Source: Spirosoma lacussanchae
Lineage (GTDB): Bacteria; Bacteroidota; Bacteroidia; Cytophagales; Spirosomataceae
Length of the DNA: 64,000 nucleotides
Direction of reading: 5' to 3'
NCBI RefSeq assembly: GCF_005870035.1
Contig: NZ_SWJG01000010.1
Span: 1-64,000 of the forward strand
A model generated the notes under the pieces. It was not told the origin of the DNA and did not search any database. It saw only the letters and a list, made by a program, of their open reading frames with translations. A program made the position numbers and the translations under genes. Within the stretch, counting starts at the first letter, position 1; each line of letters begins with the position of its first letter. Shown here in pieces: positions 1,523-5,787 of the stretch.

Positions 1523-1723
1523 ATGAAAAAACTAAATGTAATCCAGTTGGAACGCATAACCGCTGGAAGATGTACGGGAGAGTCTATTTCTTTTGCTTCG
1601 TCAGTAGCAAGTCTTGGCAAAGCAATCGGTGATGATGATTCTTCAGGATGGGACTATGCTACAGCCTCTTTAGGAGTAGCTGCTGCAGGCGAAAAATGGA
1701 TGGCTTGCATGGGCTGGCTTTAA
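1523..1723 (+). CDS. Small bacteriocin-like precursor peptide with an export leader
   Basis: A 66-residue product. Residues 1-15 (MKKLNVIQLERITAG) resemble a double-glycine-type leader: Leu4, Leu9 and Ile12 fall at -12, -7 and -4 from a cleavage point after Ala14-Gly15. The core is rich in Ala, Ser and Gly, with an acidic DDDSS turn near 37-41 and a Trp-rich end. It has exactly two cysteines, Cys17 and Cys62, near its two ends, so one disulfide could close almost the whole core. Downstream, on the same strand, are a thioredoxin-fold protein and a C39-peptidase exporter, which cleave or handle such peptides in known systems. The role as a secreted bacteriocin or signal is an inference; Ala-Gly instead of Gly-Gly is a variant cleavage site. 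Confidence 0.6.
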   Translation: MKKLNVIQLERITAGRCTGESISFASSVASLGKAIGDDDSSGWDYATASLGVAAAGEKWMACMGWL

Positions 1724-1735
1724 TCCGAAATCTAC

Positions 1736-1759
1736 GGCCAGTAGAATTATCTACTGGCC
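1736..1759 (+). terminator. Strong hairpin after the peptide gene (attenuator-like)
   Basis: A perfect 9-bp inverted repeat (GGCCAGTAG / CTACTGGCC, loop AATTAT) lies between the peptide gene stop and the next start. It has no run of T after it. It is better read as a partial terminator or an RNA-stabilising structure that would let the small peptide be made in excess over the export genes. Confidence 0.6.
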
Positions 1760-1776
1760 ATTTCACCTCAAGTAAT

Positions 1777-2487
1777 ATGAAAAAGTATTTGATTTTATGT
1801 GCCTTATACTGCTATGCCTACTTTTGTAATGCACAAAAAATAAAACGTGTTATTGGCACGTACTTCTCAAAAGATACTTTACAACCAGTTAGCCTTATTT
1901 TAAAACCGGGCGATAATAAATCTATTTCAGGAATACTTATTACTGAAATAGGTCAGGAATACACCTACTTCACGCATCAAAATGACACCCTGACAGGGCA
2001 TTTTATCCCATCTCAACCCGACAATTATATTAAAGCCATTATAAAAGATGAATCCCTTGAACTATTCATCACGCACAACGGCCTAACAAAACACCTATTC
2101 CTGTCAAAACTGAAAGACTTTGATTCAGACTTGCCTAAAAACAAGCAATTTGACCAGGCACTTTTTGGGAAATGGGTCTATTACGATGAAAAACAAGGAA
2201 AACTCATACACACTCAATATTTTGCATTCTATCCAGGTGGAAAATTAGAATTTGGCCATGCCAAACACCCTGATATAATGAATTCTGATATTATCAAATC
2301 AGGTAAAGTTAAGCCTAAATGGGCTACACAAAATCAACACCTACATTTATTATTTGAAACAAGCCTACCGTTATATATTCCTAGTATCCCAGCAAGCATT
2401 TATCGTGTAGCTGGTGATACGCTTTACATGAATAATAACTTTGGCCGCGTTCATAAAGCGGTAAGAGATAAATCGTTTATACCATGA
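1777..2487 (+). CDS. Secreted hypothetical protein of the peptide cassette
   Basis: ATG 1777 is chosen because it begins MKKYLILCALYCYAYFCNAQ, a clear signal peptide; an earlier in-frame ATG at 1648 would overlap the peptide gene and hide this signal. The 236-residue product has no recognised domain. The mature part is rich in beta-strand-forming residues (repeated T, Y, F, L alternations), which suggests a small secreted beta-rich protein. It overlaps the next gene by four bases (ATGA), so the two are translationally coupled. The position between precursor and exporter suggests a role in immunity, processing or surface display, but no sequence evidence selects among these. Confidence 0.6.
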   Translation: MKKYLILCALYCYAYFCNAQKIKRVIGTYFSKDTLQPVSLILKPGDNKSISGILITEIGQEYTYFTHQNDTLTGHFIPSQPDNYIKAIIKDESLELFITHNGLTKHLFLSKLKDFDSDLPKNKQFDQALFGKWVYYDEKQGKLIHTQYFAFYPGGKLEFGHAKHPDIMNSDIIKSGKVKPKWATQNQHLHLLFETSLPLYIPSIPASIYRVAGDTLYMNNNFGRVHKAVRDKSFIP

Positions 2488-3110
2488 ATAGCTTAACCCG
2501 ATATTTATTACTCTTTTCATTACTTCTAATGACCGACTTTACATTAGGAGCAATCGTATATCACTTTTTCTTACCTGAACAGTTAGTATTAGAAAGTTTA
2601 TCTAAAAAATTTACACAGTCTGAAATAGCAACTCTATTGAAGCACAAAGAGGACCATTATGTACTTTTAAATCTATTAAAAGGAATTTTTAAGTTATTTA
2701 ATATTGTGGTCATTACAAGCATTTTGTCAATTGGTATTCTGCTAAATGATTTCAAAGTTCAGTGGATACGTATTATTAATATAGTAACTATTGCTCAATT
2801 TGTATTTTTCATCCCATTGCTTTTAAAACTAGGCTGGTTTTCCTTTATCAAGACAGACTATACCTACGCTAATTTCAGCGATTTTAGTGCGCTTTCACTA
2901 TATAACCTCCTGGATTATGCCGAGGAATGGCAAAGATGGCCTCTTAAACAACTCAATATTTTTGAATTTTTATTTTGGCTTATTCTGGCAATAGGTTTAC
3001 AGAAGGCTTATAACATTCCACTAAGCAATGGAATGTCAATTGTGGTGCAGTCATACGGCGTGTCTTTCTTTTTATGGATAACAGTGATTGTTTTTTTAAG
3101 TATTATGTAA
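2484..3110 (+). CDS. Polytopic membrane protein of the peptide cassette
   Basis: A 208-residue protein with about five membrane spans: roughly residues 5-26, 68-87, 96-116, 158-176 and 187-207. The family is not recognised. It starts within the stop codon of the gene before (ATGA overlap) and ends 4 bases before the thioredoxin-fold gene, so it is part of one operon. In other peptide-export loci small membrane proteins of this kind serve as immunity proteins or transport accessories; that role is an inference from position only. The gene is AT-rich like its upstream neighbours. Confidence 0.6.
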   Translation: MNSLTRYLLLFSLLLMTDFTLGAIVYHFFLPEQLVLESLSKKFTQSEIATLLKHKEDHYVLLNLLKGIFKLFNIVVITSILSIGILLNDFKVQWIRIINIVTIAQFVFFIPLLLKLGWFSFIKTDYTYANFSDFSALSLYNLLDYAEEWQRWPLKQLNIFEFLFWLILAIGLQKAYNIPLSNGMSIVVQSYGVSFFLWITVIVFLSIM

Positions 3111-3114
3111 TCAC

Positions 3115-3603
3115 ATGAAGAATTATTTGTATTTATTATTATTCATTCTATTTACTGGAATGACTTACAAAATTCTTGATCGTTTAGCCGTACGCAAAGA
3201 GACGTCCCACAAGATTCACACCCTGCCGAGCGTGGCATCAGCCAAGTTCACAGCACTCAAGCCCATGCTTCACGGGAAACCTTCTATCGTCATTTTCTTT
3301 GATCCTGATTGTGAGCTATGTCACCGGGAAGCTACACAAATACGCCAGCAACAAGCAGCCTTTGCCAATACGTCTGTTTACTGGCTCACTACGCAATCCC
3401 TTACCAAAGCCCGGGCTTTTGCGCATCAATACGGCCTCGATACGCTCTCGATGATGCACGTTGGGGCGCTCACCCGCGAAGAAGCCTACCAGGCTTTTGG
3501 CCCCACAAGCGTACCTCATATTTTTATTTACGGCGCCGATAAGCGACTCCGTAAGGAATACAAGGGCGAGGTAAAAGTGGAGGCCCTCCTAAAGTACCTA
3601 TGA
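3115..3603 (+). CDS. Membrane-anchored thioredoxin-fold (TlpA/AhpC-like) protein
   Basis: A 162-residue protein with an N-terminal hydrophobic anchor (residues 3-19), then a thioredoxin fold. The redox motif CELC is at Cys66-Cys69 after FFDPD, and the cis-proline loop TSVP is at 131-134. These are the hallmarks of periplasmic thiol-disulfide exchange proteins of the TlpA class. It overlaps the exporter gene by ATGA. With a two-cysteine precursor encoded three genes upstream, a role in forming or reshuffling the peptide disulfide is plausible. Composition is odd: the first ~65 bases are AT-rich like the genes before, while the rest has the higher GC of the genes after, as if a junction lay near 3180. 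Confidence 0.75.
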   Translation: MKNYLYLLLFILFTGMTYKILDRLAVRKETSHKIHTLPSVASAKFTALKPMLHGKPSIVIFFDPDCELCHREATQIRQQQAAFANTSVYWLTTQSLTKARAFAHQYGLDTLSMMHVGALTREEAYQAFGPTSVPHIFIYGADKRLRKEYKGEVKVEALLKYL

Positions 3604-5787
3604 AACATATCCACCGGACCTTCACCCGCCAGCTCGACCAAACCGATTGCGGAGTGGCCTGCCTATTGTCAATTTTGCGGTATCATGGCGGAGATGCCAG
3701 CCGGGAACGGCTCCGCGAACTCAGCGGCACAAGCATTCAGGGTACTTCGCTGCTTGGCCTGTACCAAACCGCGCAGGCACTGGGCTTTGATGCCGAGGGC
3801 CTCGAAGCAGAGGGTATCCACAACCTAAGCGAACTTACCGAACCCGCTATTCTGCACGTTTTGATCGACGACGGCCCTACTGGGCAGCGGCTACAGCATT
3901 ATGTTATCTATTATGGTCAGGCTAATGGCTACTACACCATTGGCGACCCGGGGCGGGGTGTGGTGCAGATGCCAGCCGAGGAGCTAACCCAAATCTGGCA
4001 GTCGCGGGCGTTGCTGTCGCTTAAACCTACCGACACGTTTGTCAGAACAACCCAAAGTCGCCAACAGCAGTGGCAGTGGTTCCGGCAATTGCTACACAAC
4101 GACCTGCCCCTGCTGGGCATTGCAGCCGGGCTGGGTGTGCTGATGGCCGCTTTGGGTCTGACGATGGCGCTGTTTTCGCAAAAATTGCTGGATGAGATTC
4201 TGCCCCGGCAAAACGTAGAAAAGCTGACGCTGGGTTTATTGCTATTGGCGGTGCTGTTACTCGCTCGGGCGGGCATTGGCTACCTGCGAGGCTTTTTGCT
4301 GCTGCGGCAAAGCCGGGACTTCAATACGCGCATCGCCAATCACTTTTTCCGCGATCTGCTACAGCTCCCTAAATCGTTTTTCGACACCCGCAAAACCGGC
4401 GATCTGGTGGCTCGGCTCAACGACACCCGCCGAATTCAGGCTACCATCAGCTTCCTGACAGGCAACGTAGTCATTGATGTGCTTATGGTGCTTATTACGG
4501 CTGGTTTCCTGTTTATTTATCACTGGCAGATCGGTTTGCTCAGCCTGGTTTGCCTGCCCCTGTTTGGCTGGCTGGTATGGCGCTTCAACGCCCGGATTAT
4601 TGCGGGCCAACAGGAAGCAATGGCCGGTTATGCCCACACAGAGAGTCATTTTATTGACTGCATGAGCGGCATTGGCGTGATCAAGGCAAACCAGAAAGAG
4701 CCGTTTTTTAGCGCCGTAACGTCGGCCATCTACACGTCTTTTCAGCAAAAGCTCTATCAGTTAGGCTTACTGGGCAATCGCTACAGCCTGCTGAGTGAGT
4801 TAATCAGCGTCGGGATGTTGGTTGCGCTTATTGCTGTGAGTACGTTTATGGTGCTACACAAACAACTGAAACTGGGCGAAATGATGGCCGTTCTGAACAT
4901 GTCCGGTACGCTCATCAGCGCCATTGCCCGGCTTTCTACCACCAATATTCAGTTGCAGGAAGCCCGCGTGGCGTTTCAACGGATGCGTGAGTTCACCGAA
5001 CTCCCCGCCGAAGCATCTGACAGTCAGGAGGTATTAACCAACAGTAGCCTGCCAACAGAAATCGTACTGGAGTCGCTGACGGCAAAAGGCTTATCGTACC
5101 GGTTTGCGGGTCGCCCGGCCCTGTTGAAAGACATCTCATTTTCGGTACAGAGAGGGCAGATTATGGGCCTGATTGGTGAAACCGGTTCGGGCAAAAGCAT
5201 GCTTCTTCAGATTCTACAGAAGTTTTATGAGCCAGAAGAAAAAGACCAACTAAGCGTCAAAATGGCTCTCCCTGGCACTTCATTTGCGGGGGGGGGGTGA
5301 TACTGCCTGGTCAGCCATCCCGGCTGCCGATTGGCGTAGATTGATCGCCTGCGTACCCCAACCGATCAAAATCTTTAACGGCACCCTGCTGGATAATATC
5401 TGTCTGAGCAACACACTCGAAGAAGCCGACGCAGTCGTACAGTTTTGCCAGGAGTACGGTTTCCACGATTATTTCATGAAACTACCACAGAATTACCTGA
5501 CGCTTGTGGGTGAAGAAGGCATAAACCTGTCGGGTGGTCAGCAACAACTGGTTGGTCTGGCCCGGGCTTTGTACCGCCGTCCACAACTGTTGTTGCTGGA
5601 CGAAGCTACGTCTGCCCTCGACCGCCAAACCGAGCAGTTTGTGCTTGCTCTGCTTCAGCGAATCAAATCGCAGATGGCCATTATCATGGTTACGCACAGG
5701 AGCCAGTCCGTTTTACTGGCCGACCGGGTTTATGTGATGGAGAACGGCATTCTTCAGGTAACCAGCACGACACCTACGGTTGCCTGA
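3600..5787 (+). pseudogene. Peptidase C39-containing ABC exporter, frameshifted at a G10 run
   Basis: This is a peptide cleaving-and-exporting ABC transporter. The N-terminal C39 protease has QLDQTDCG with Cys17, His100 and Asp116 as the catalytic triad. Membrane helices span about 155-440, followed by an ATPase with Walker A GETGSGKS, signature LSGGQQQ, Walker [13 protein letters not shown] and switch MVTH. The frame stops at TGA 5298-5300, just after ten G (5288-5297); the ATPase remainder continues in the next frame to 5787. With nine G the gene would encode one protein of about 728 residues, the normal size for the family. Either this clone is switched off by slippage or the run was misread. 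No HlyD-type adaptor gene is adjacent. Confidence 0.85.
5288..5297 (+). repeat. Homopolymer of ten G inside the exporter ATPase
   Basis: The tract lies between Walker A and the signature motif and sets the frame of everything after it. Nine G restores the full exporter; ten gives a stop after three glycines. Mononucleotide runs of this length are known slippage points in phase-variable genes and are also common sequencing-error points. Confidence 0.9.

Follow-up and report, generated by a model that had tools for sequence, protein, structure and literature searches.

Bacteroidetocins, proposed as class IIf bacteriocins (PMC6671954, PMC8546649), are the closest described relatives of the gene cassette analyzed here, which lies at positions 1523-5787 of a 64,000-nucleotide stretch of Spirosoma lacussanchae DNA (hereafter the window). 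A literature search for class IIf bacteriocins returned Coyne et al. (2019) alone. In that paper (PMC6671954), bacteroidetocin regions are described as encoding a five-span membrane protein, a thiol oxidoreductase, an exporter with a C39 peptidase domain, and a peptide with a double-glycine (GG)-type leader, and regions A and B have the order membrane protein, peptide, oxidoreductase, exporter. These four genes are enough in E. coli, and loss of the membrane protein, peptide or oxidoreductase gene attenuates toxin activity; the membrane protein and the oxidoreductase are required for full activity and confer no immunity. Of the 19 unique peptides it reports, the additional members come from 35 genomes in four classes and have at least two cysteines; bacteroidetocins A and B have four cysteines and net charges of +6 and +2, respectively. 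BamA is named as the bacteroidetocin target in a later paper (PMC8546649).

Contig C2 (188,355 bases) of a 6.33 Mb draft genome in 23 contigs opens with the window, which takes up its initial 64 kb; all window features mentioned below are on the forward strand. The cassette starts with a 66-residue precursor (1523-1723) in which Cys17 and Cys62 are the only cysteines. It comprises a 15-residue leader ending in Ala-Gly (MKKLNVIQLERITAG, 1523-1567) and a 51-residue core starting at Arg16 (1568-1720), with the cysteines at core positions 2 and 47. Next come a beta-rich protein of 236 residues with a signal-like N-terminus (1777-2487; the frame is already open from 1648 and the start at 1777 is a choice), a five-span membrane protein (2484-3110), a thioredoxin-like oxidoreductase with a hydrophobic N-terminal stretch (3115-3603, CELC at 3310-3321), and a C39 peptidase-ATP-binding cassette (ABC) exporter, the part of which before a frame break covers 3600-5300. 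The exporter has QTDCG from residue 14, HYV from residue 100 and GDP from residue 115, which we take to be the motifs of the catalytic Cys, His and Asp. In Pfam and NCBIfam, the thioredoxin-like protein matched PF13098 (32 bits, above the cut-off of 27) and the exporter matched PF03412 (98.3 bits), PF00664 (112.8 bits) and PF00005, with C39 and ABC domains above cut-off. The other three gene products had no match up to E 1. The window had no Rfam match and ARAGORN found no gene in it.

Much of this had been read from the sequence in a first-pass annotation, and the precursor, the beta-rich protein and the CELC protein stand as described there. The exporter is confirmed as well; the last part of its ATPase domain (5284-5787) is an open reading frame (ORF) in another frame, the break being in a run of ten G (5288-5297). 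The ATGA overlaps claimed for three gene pairs are found at only two junctions (2484-2487 and 3600-3603); four bases separate the membrane protein and thioredoxin genes, and 53 the peptide and beta-rich genes. The view that these parts belong to no named system was mistaken: the bacteroidetocin regions contain the membrane protein, the oxidoreductase, the C39 exporter and the GG-leader peptide, in a different order.

Because a homology search with the window peptide gave nothing convincing (matches at E ≤ 1 in 11 of 59 genomes, the best besides itself at E 0.009), we followed the family through the membrane protein gene, and neighborhoods were fetched for the strongest matches and some weaker ones. 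The membrane protein was matched in 12 of 59 relatives including its own genome (E ≤ 0.01), 103 of 390 genomes of the order (E ≤ 1e-5), 27 of 395 genomes of the phylum, and 17 of 393 genomes of a Bacteroidales genome's order (E ≤ 0.001). Hosts include Spirosoma, Fibrella, Flectobacillus, Pontibacter, Thermoflexibacter, Pedobacter, Sphingobacterium, Aquimarina and Bacteroidales bins (27 loci). The 121 resulting loci, window included, were reduced to 111 distinct ones by removal of identical proteins, and 72 of these carry a thioredoxin and a C39 exporter downstream of the membrane protein on the same strand. The order membrane protein, thioredoxin, C39 exporter is kept in 72 of 72, with further genes between the first two in L106, L125 and L224. 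The remaining distinct loci have the thioredoxin only (9), the C39 exporter only (3) or neither (27); some incomplete loci are truncated by contig ends, and many of the 27 belong to family f19, in which the membrane protein stands alone. From these counts, the three-gene chassis is real and its membrane protein exists outside it too. Fourteen loci (L138-L145, L147, L149-L151, L155 and L156), 13 of them f19, have membrane protein homologues with no thioredoxin or C39 exporter in the 15-16 kb fetched.

Both cysteines of the CxxC motif are invariant in 12 of 12 aligned thioredoxins. An AlphaFold2 model of the membrane protein (mean predicted local distance difference test, pLDDT, 88.4; predicted template modeling score, pTM, 0.83) has five predicted membrane helices, in agreement with the five spans first read from its sequence. 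Of the 22 matches that Foldseek returned for this model at E ≤ 10, none reached E ≤ 0.001, and a PDB sequence search with the family profile had no match. The best VIA-align row was CysZ (Z 3.9, root-mean-square deviation 9.4, 139 aligned), which was tied with unrelated rows, and no fold is claimed.

The cargo of the chassis was traced with a 15-residue leader matrix made from 55 pattern-picked leaders, the window peptide excluded. The window leader scores 28.8 bits on it. With a threshold of 10 bits, 148 ORFs are picked up on the membrane protein strand and none on the opposite one; the 55 seeds were themselves taken from the former strand, which favors the contrast, and the window score is unaffected by this choice of seeds. 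Among 130 peptides at this threshold, 107 leaders end in GG and nine in Ala-Gly, the second commonest ending. A cut of 8 bits yielded 135 distinct leader peptides, none of which was removed, although a few are evidently chance hits or gene pieces (L085 10792, L039, L156). Counting duplicates, a leader peptide is present in 73 of 84 loci with the full chassis, 7 of 11 partial loci and 6 of 26 loci with the membrane protein only. In 20 control C39 loci without the membrane protein, three of them from the window genome, this leader occurs on the exporter strand once, in a peptide that has no cysteine. Linkage of the peptides to an exporter, an expectation of the first-pass annotation, is borne out by this difference and incomplete in that a few peptides (e.g., in L321) have no exporter in the fetched stretch.

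Two cysteines are the rule in these peptides. The cores of the 135 contain none (7), one (7), two (102), three (12) or four (7), and a Poisson distribution with the same mean predicts 36.5 with exactly two; peptides with non-seed leaders give two in 55 of 78. The first cysteine of two-cysteine cores is at a median of five residues from the start and the second four from the end, and the median fraction of the core enclosed in the loop is 0.78, compared to 0.32 for random placement (maximum 0.44 in 2000 trials). The window core reaches 0.90. Conservation of the leader and of the two cysteines had been set beforehand as a test, and both are present across the family. Gly plus Ala make up 32%, and Lys plus Arg 2.3%, of the 101 two-cysteine cores that score at least 10 bits. 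GxxxG motifs are not above chance in them (69 of 101, shuffled mean 58.8, maximum 71 in 500 shuffles). NCBIfam and Pfam scans, TIGR03949 and PF10439 (class IIb/IIc) included, assigned the window peptide to no bacteriocin family, and nine other peptides scanned gave some weak bacteriocin-family matches, all below cut-off (best PF10439, E 6.2e-4). A large two-cysteine peptide family paired with export machinery of known type was new to us.

The gene between peptide and membrane protein, the place of the beta-rich protein in the window, is interchangeable and very different among loci. This slot holds hydrophobic proteins of 50-80 residues in L029, L030, L031, L035, L074, L090 and others, a carboxypeptidase-regulatory-like protein in L036, a weakly LolA-like protein below cut-off in L105, and ATPase-permease sets, judged by eye, in L107, L109, L113, L124, L217, L218 and L234. 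A single slot protein, one of two in L122 (7064-7498), exceeds the Lipocalin_4 cut-off, and matches below it occur in L111, in L114 and in one of the two L118 proteins; in L122, lipocalin-like slot genes alternate with peptides. The window protein itself is an orphan, with no Pfam match up to E 5 and homologues at E ≤ 0.01 in 5 of 291 genomes including its own, the other four being weak and partial. Its single-sequence model has a mean pLDDT of 46.8. A suspected lipocalin-like domain could not be confirmed. Since an interchangeable gene beside the cargo resembles immunity genes, the slot gene looks like a candidate immunity gene.

Compared with bacteroidetocins, the window cassette shares the 15-residue GG-type leader (15-16 residues in bacteroidetocins), the five-span membrane protein, the thiol oxidoreductase and the C39-ABC exporter. 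It differs in having an extra slot gene, in its order (peptide, slot gene, membrane protein, oxidoreductase, exporter, in contrast to that of regions A and B), and in its cargo, which has two end cysteines in a Gly/Ala-rich, neutral or acidic core instead of the four cysteines of bacteroidetocins A and B. The Bacteroidales locus L225 connects the two, with the published gene order, a four-cysteine peptide, and a membrane protein matched at E 2.7e-20 by a profile built without it; kinship of the membrane protein to the bacteroidetocin system was judged through this locus. Our guess, from its place near 113 kb of the chromosome, which would suit a gene numbered 90, is that L225 is the bacteroidetocin D region (XylorDRAFT_0090). 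The most fitting name for the window set is bacteroidetocin-type cassette with two-cysteine cargo, and strict membership is not claimed.

Two other kinds of bacteriocin system share some features. Clusters for circular or leaderless bacteriocins are reported to contain five-span proteins, of the Yip1 family and about 220 residues (bawcin BawG, PMC10707071; PMC8659200), and a hydrophobic core with joined ends is a shared design idea. However, their peptides have no leader or are backbone-cyclized, and their ABC parts are different; here closure would be by disulfide. Yip1 (PF04893) matched 4 of 22 members of our membrane protein family weakly (best E 3.1e-4) and not the window protein; the match agrees with the five-span Yip1 proteins of those clusters, and the link is weak. 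Pediocin-like class IIa systems with a PedC-type disulfide protein have a GG leader, a C39 exporter and a linked disulfide protein too, and TIGR01295 matched the L225 thioredoxin at 1.7e-5, far below cut-off; by contrast, the window has a Gram-negative host, an extra membrane protein, and a peptide outside the NCBIfam/Pfam bacteriocin families.

Taken together, we consider it likely, from comparison of the sequences, that the cassette is of the bacteroidetocin-type bacteriocin kind with a different class of peptide. The 66-residue precursor would be produced with its 15-residue GG-type leader, the C39 domain of the exporter would bind the leader and cleave after Ala-Gly, and the ABC part would carry the core over the inner membrane. 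The CELC thioredoxin-like protein would form or proofread one disulfide joining the end cysteines, which would make the hydrophobic core almost a ring. The strong comparative pattern supports the proposal of the first-pass annotation that a secreted, disulfide-closed peptide may be helped by the linked thioredoxin. The five-span protein would aid production or export, like its bacteroidetocin B counterpart, the slot gene would provide self-protection, and the peptide would inhibit related bacteria. The conserved gene set and its order, the leader, the two-cysteine pattern and the interchangeable slot are directly established, and the system is real, conserved, of a known kind and, by deduction, probably antibacterial.

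Several observations weigh against this interpretation. Bacteriocin activity and the disulfide are both predicted from comparison of sequences, and the exporter in the window is broken. The window peptide has no significant relative, either in the 59 genomes mentioned above (best other E 0.009) or among the fetched loci (0.044). With a median net charge of -1 (-3 in the window), the cores lie on the neutral-to-acidic side, compared to +6 and +2 for bacteroidetocins A and B. Two cysteines also occur in 9 of 12 leader peptides from membrane protein loci without a thioredoxin match (two-cysteine peptides in L119, L121, L127, L130, L136, L229 and L230, some of them at contig ends). The Aquimarina loci L086 and L087 (5900-9800) encode, beside peptides with 15-residue leaders, several with 23-residue leaders and three to five cysteines (MKNKKKLSLKKMNVAQLDSVKGG...), which the 15-residue matrix excludes. 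Two-cysteine peptides with a 24-residue leader (MNSLKKKFGKFAVSTEKMAKV-TGG/KGG) are found in the control loci L276 (7318-7500) and L285 (10039-10224), without the membrane protein, near a thioredoxin-like match and on the strand opposite to the C39 exporter, so that the two-cysteine pattern also exists outside this chassis. Finally, in Coyne et al. (2019; PMC6671954), no immunity gene was found and producers inhibit themselves, which makes the immunity slot our own reading.

The window copy may also be a relic from which no peptide is secreted, which we consider slightly less likely than not. The exporter frame is interrupted inside the ten-G run, and the cassette's regulator is damaged. A transposase-like frame ends at the very start of the contig (1-93, YNRQRRHSALGYLSPFDYY...), presumably of IS3 type. 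Behind it, the C-terminal part of a helix-turn-helix (HTH) regulator starts near base 126 (126-341, with the leader-like QRKLNNSDMEKLEGG; transposase end and junction in 1-125), and a second, degenerate remnant of the same part is at 1173-1262. Regulator residues 1 to about 34 are at the edge of contig C19 (C19 1-222), adjoining an OrfA-like start. From these two edges, we conclude that the regulator was split by an insertion element, at which the assembly itself breaks. An ORF of 251 residues between the remnants (381-1136; weak DUF4292 match below cut-off, E 4.5e-4) is possibly an older accessory gene. With its exporter frame broken and its regulator interrupted, the window copy as assembled is probably non-working and looks decayed. 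The same genome has a second cassette at about 706 kb of contig C1, spanning about 703.7-709.1 kb, with open frames, including a 709-residue exporter, two two-cysteine peptides and a slot protein of its own (180 residues). Its presence fits a relic in the window, although its exporter might serve the window peptide.

Other observations weigh against a relic. The remaining cassette genes of the window are open. Exporter ORFs below 650 residues, clear of contig or locus ends, likewise occur in L028, L037, L038, L105 and L124, all with a thioredoxin, as well as in L229 and L230 without one, and L085 has an extra fragment; where inspected, the lesions vary, with a stop codon in L028 and frame changes in L037 and L038. 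Such short or split ORFs may be errors, relics or under some form of regulation. In Coyne et al. (PMC6671954), single-base homopolymer indels in such loci were treated as likely errors. Counting overlapping matches, the genome has 16 runs of at least nine G on the forward and 16 on the reverse strand, so the ten-G run has many counterparts and phase variation is not claimed.

The tail of the regulator recurs elsewhere. In 25 regulator rows from cassette and control loci, a leader-like 15-mer (at least 6 bits, GG site included) follows the HTH part in eight: QRKLNNSDMEKLEGG in the window, RRRLDTDSMENLEGG in L038 (9729-10088), FRKLSKQETANLNGG in L031 (12653-12967), KRVLTNDDMSKISGG twice in L221 (1965-2363, 3527-4093), and other tails in L105, L124 and L084. 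A leader-tailed regulator is also present in L322 (1520-1912), L036 has a leader-like stretch in another frame, and other regulator branches are without such a tail. The distance from the HTH part to the 15-mer is nearly constant in six aligned members. In a wider set of 55 rows (L093 and L311 counted twice), 36 have tails of at least 22 residues, and 14 of these 36 contain a leader-like 15-mer matched by at most 1% of shuffles; the window and L031 tails were cut too late in this set and neither is among the 14. Of eight further regulator loci, four (L321, L322, L325 and L326) have two-cysteine leader peptides adjoining the regulator; the other four, L323, L324, L328 and L334, do not, the regulator being near a contig start in L323 and L324. 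Similarity of tails to leaders of their own locus gave a permutation p of 0.018 over 12 loci, which we do not use as proof because it is driven by L322 and L326 and the own locus ranks first in only 3 of 12. We tentatively suggest, although we rather doubt it, that the regulator could be a decoy of the cargo, whose leader copy and GG site would be read or cut by the C39 exporter or a leader binder, so that the peptide would be produced in step with the capacity to export it. HTH regulators with a leader tail did not come up in the open-literature search made for them, nor in passages of PMC8939145; subscription papers and supplements were outside the search.

Pheromones, too, are known to use GG-type leaders and C39 exporters, and the cassette product might be a secreted signaling peptide instead of a toxin, in a circuit that would include the HTH regulator upstream. 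The adjoining of peptide genes by HTH regulators, some leader-tailed, and the non-cationic cores would fit such a role. Still, many single loci encode several different peptides, and the slot genes are immunity-like, as judged from the small membrane proteins, the alternation of peptides and lipocalin-like genes in L122, and the ATPase-permease sets. The relatives that were tested are toxins (PMC6671954), and judging from peptides, slot genes and these relatives we find a signaling function improbable. Least probable by our estimate is that the two cysteines serve other chemistry, either by joining two peptides in a disulfide-linked dimer or through S-glycosylation of the glycocin type: glycosyltransferase genes (UDPGT) between regulator and two-cysteine peptides in L031 (11274-12614) and L038 (8424-9722), and a similar-looking one judged by eye in L321 (7464-8783), may modify peptides in some loci, but no glycosyltransferase is among the window cassette ORFs, the end-to-end placement of cysteines fits intramolecular closure, and the CxxC protein is the usual partner.

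Understood as a bacteroidetocin-type cassette with two-cysteine cargo, the system goes beyond the literature searched in its cargo class, its slot and the feature of its regulator. It widens the 19 published peptides to a chassis present in several Bacteroidota orders with about 100 distinct two-cysteine cargos. The slot genes are candidate immunity genes, none of which the published study found, and an end-to-end disulfide suggests a second route, besides backbone cyclization, to ring-like hydrophobic bacteriocins. If true, the leader-tailed regulator would link transcription with export in a manner that is new.

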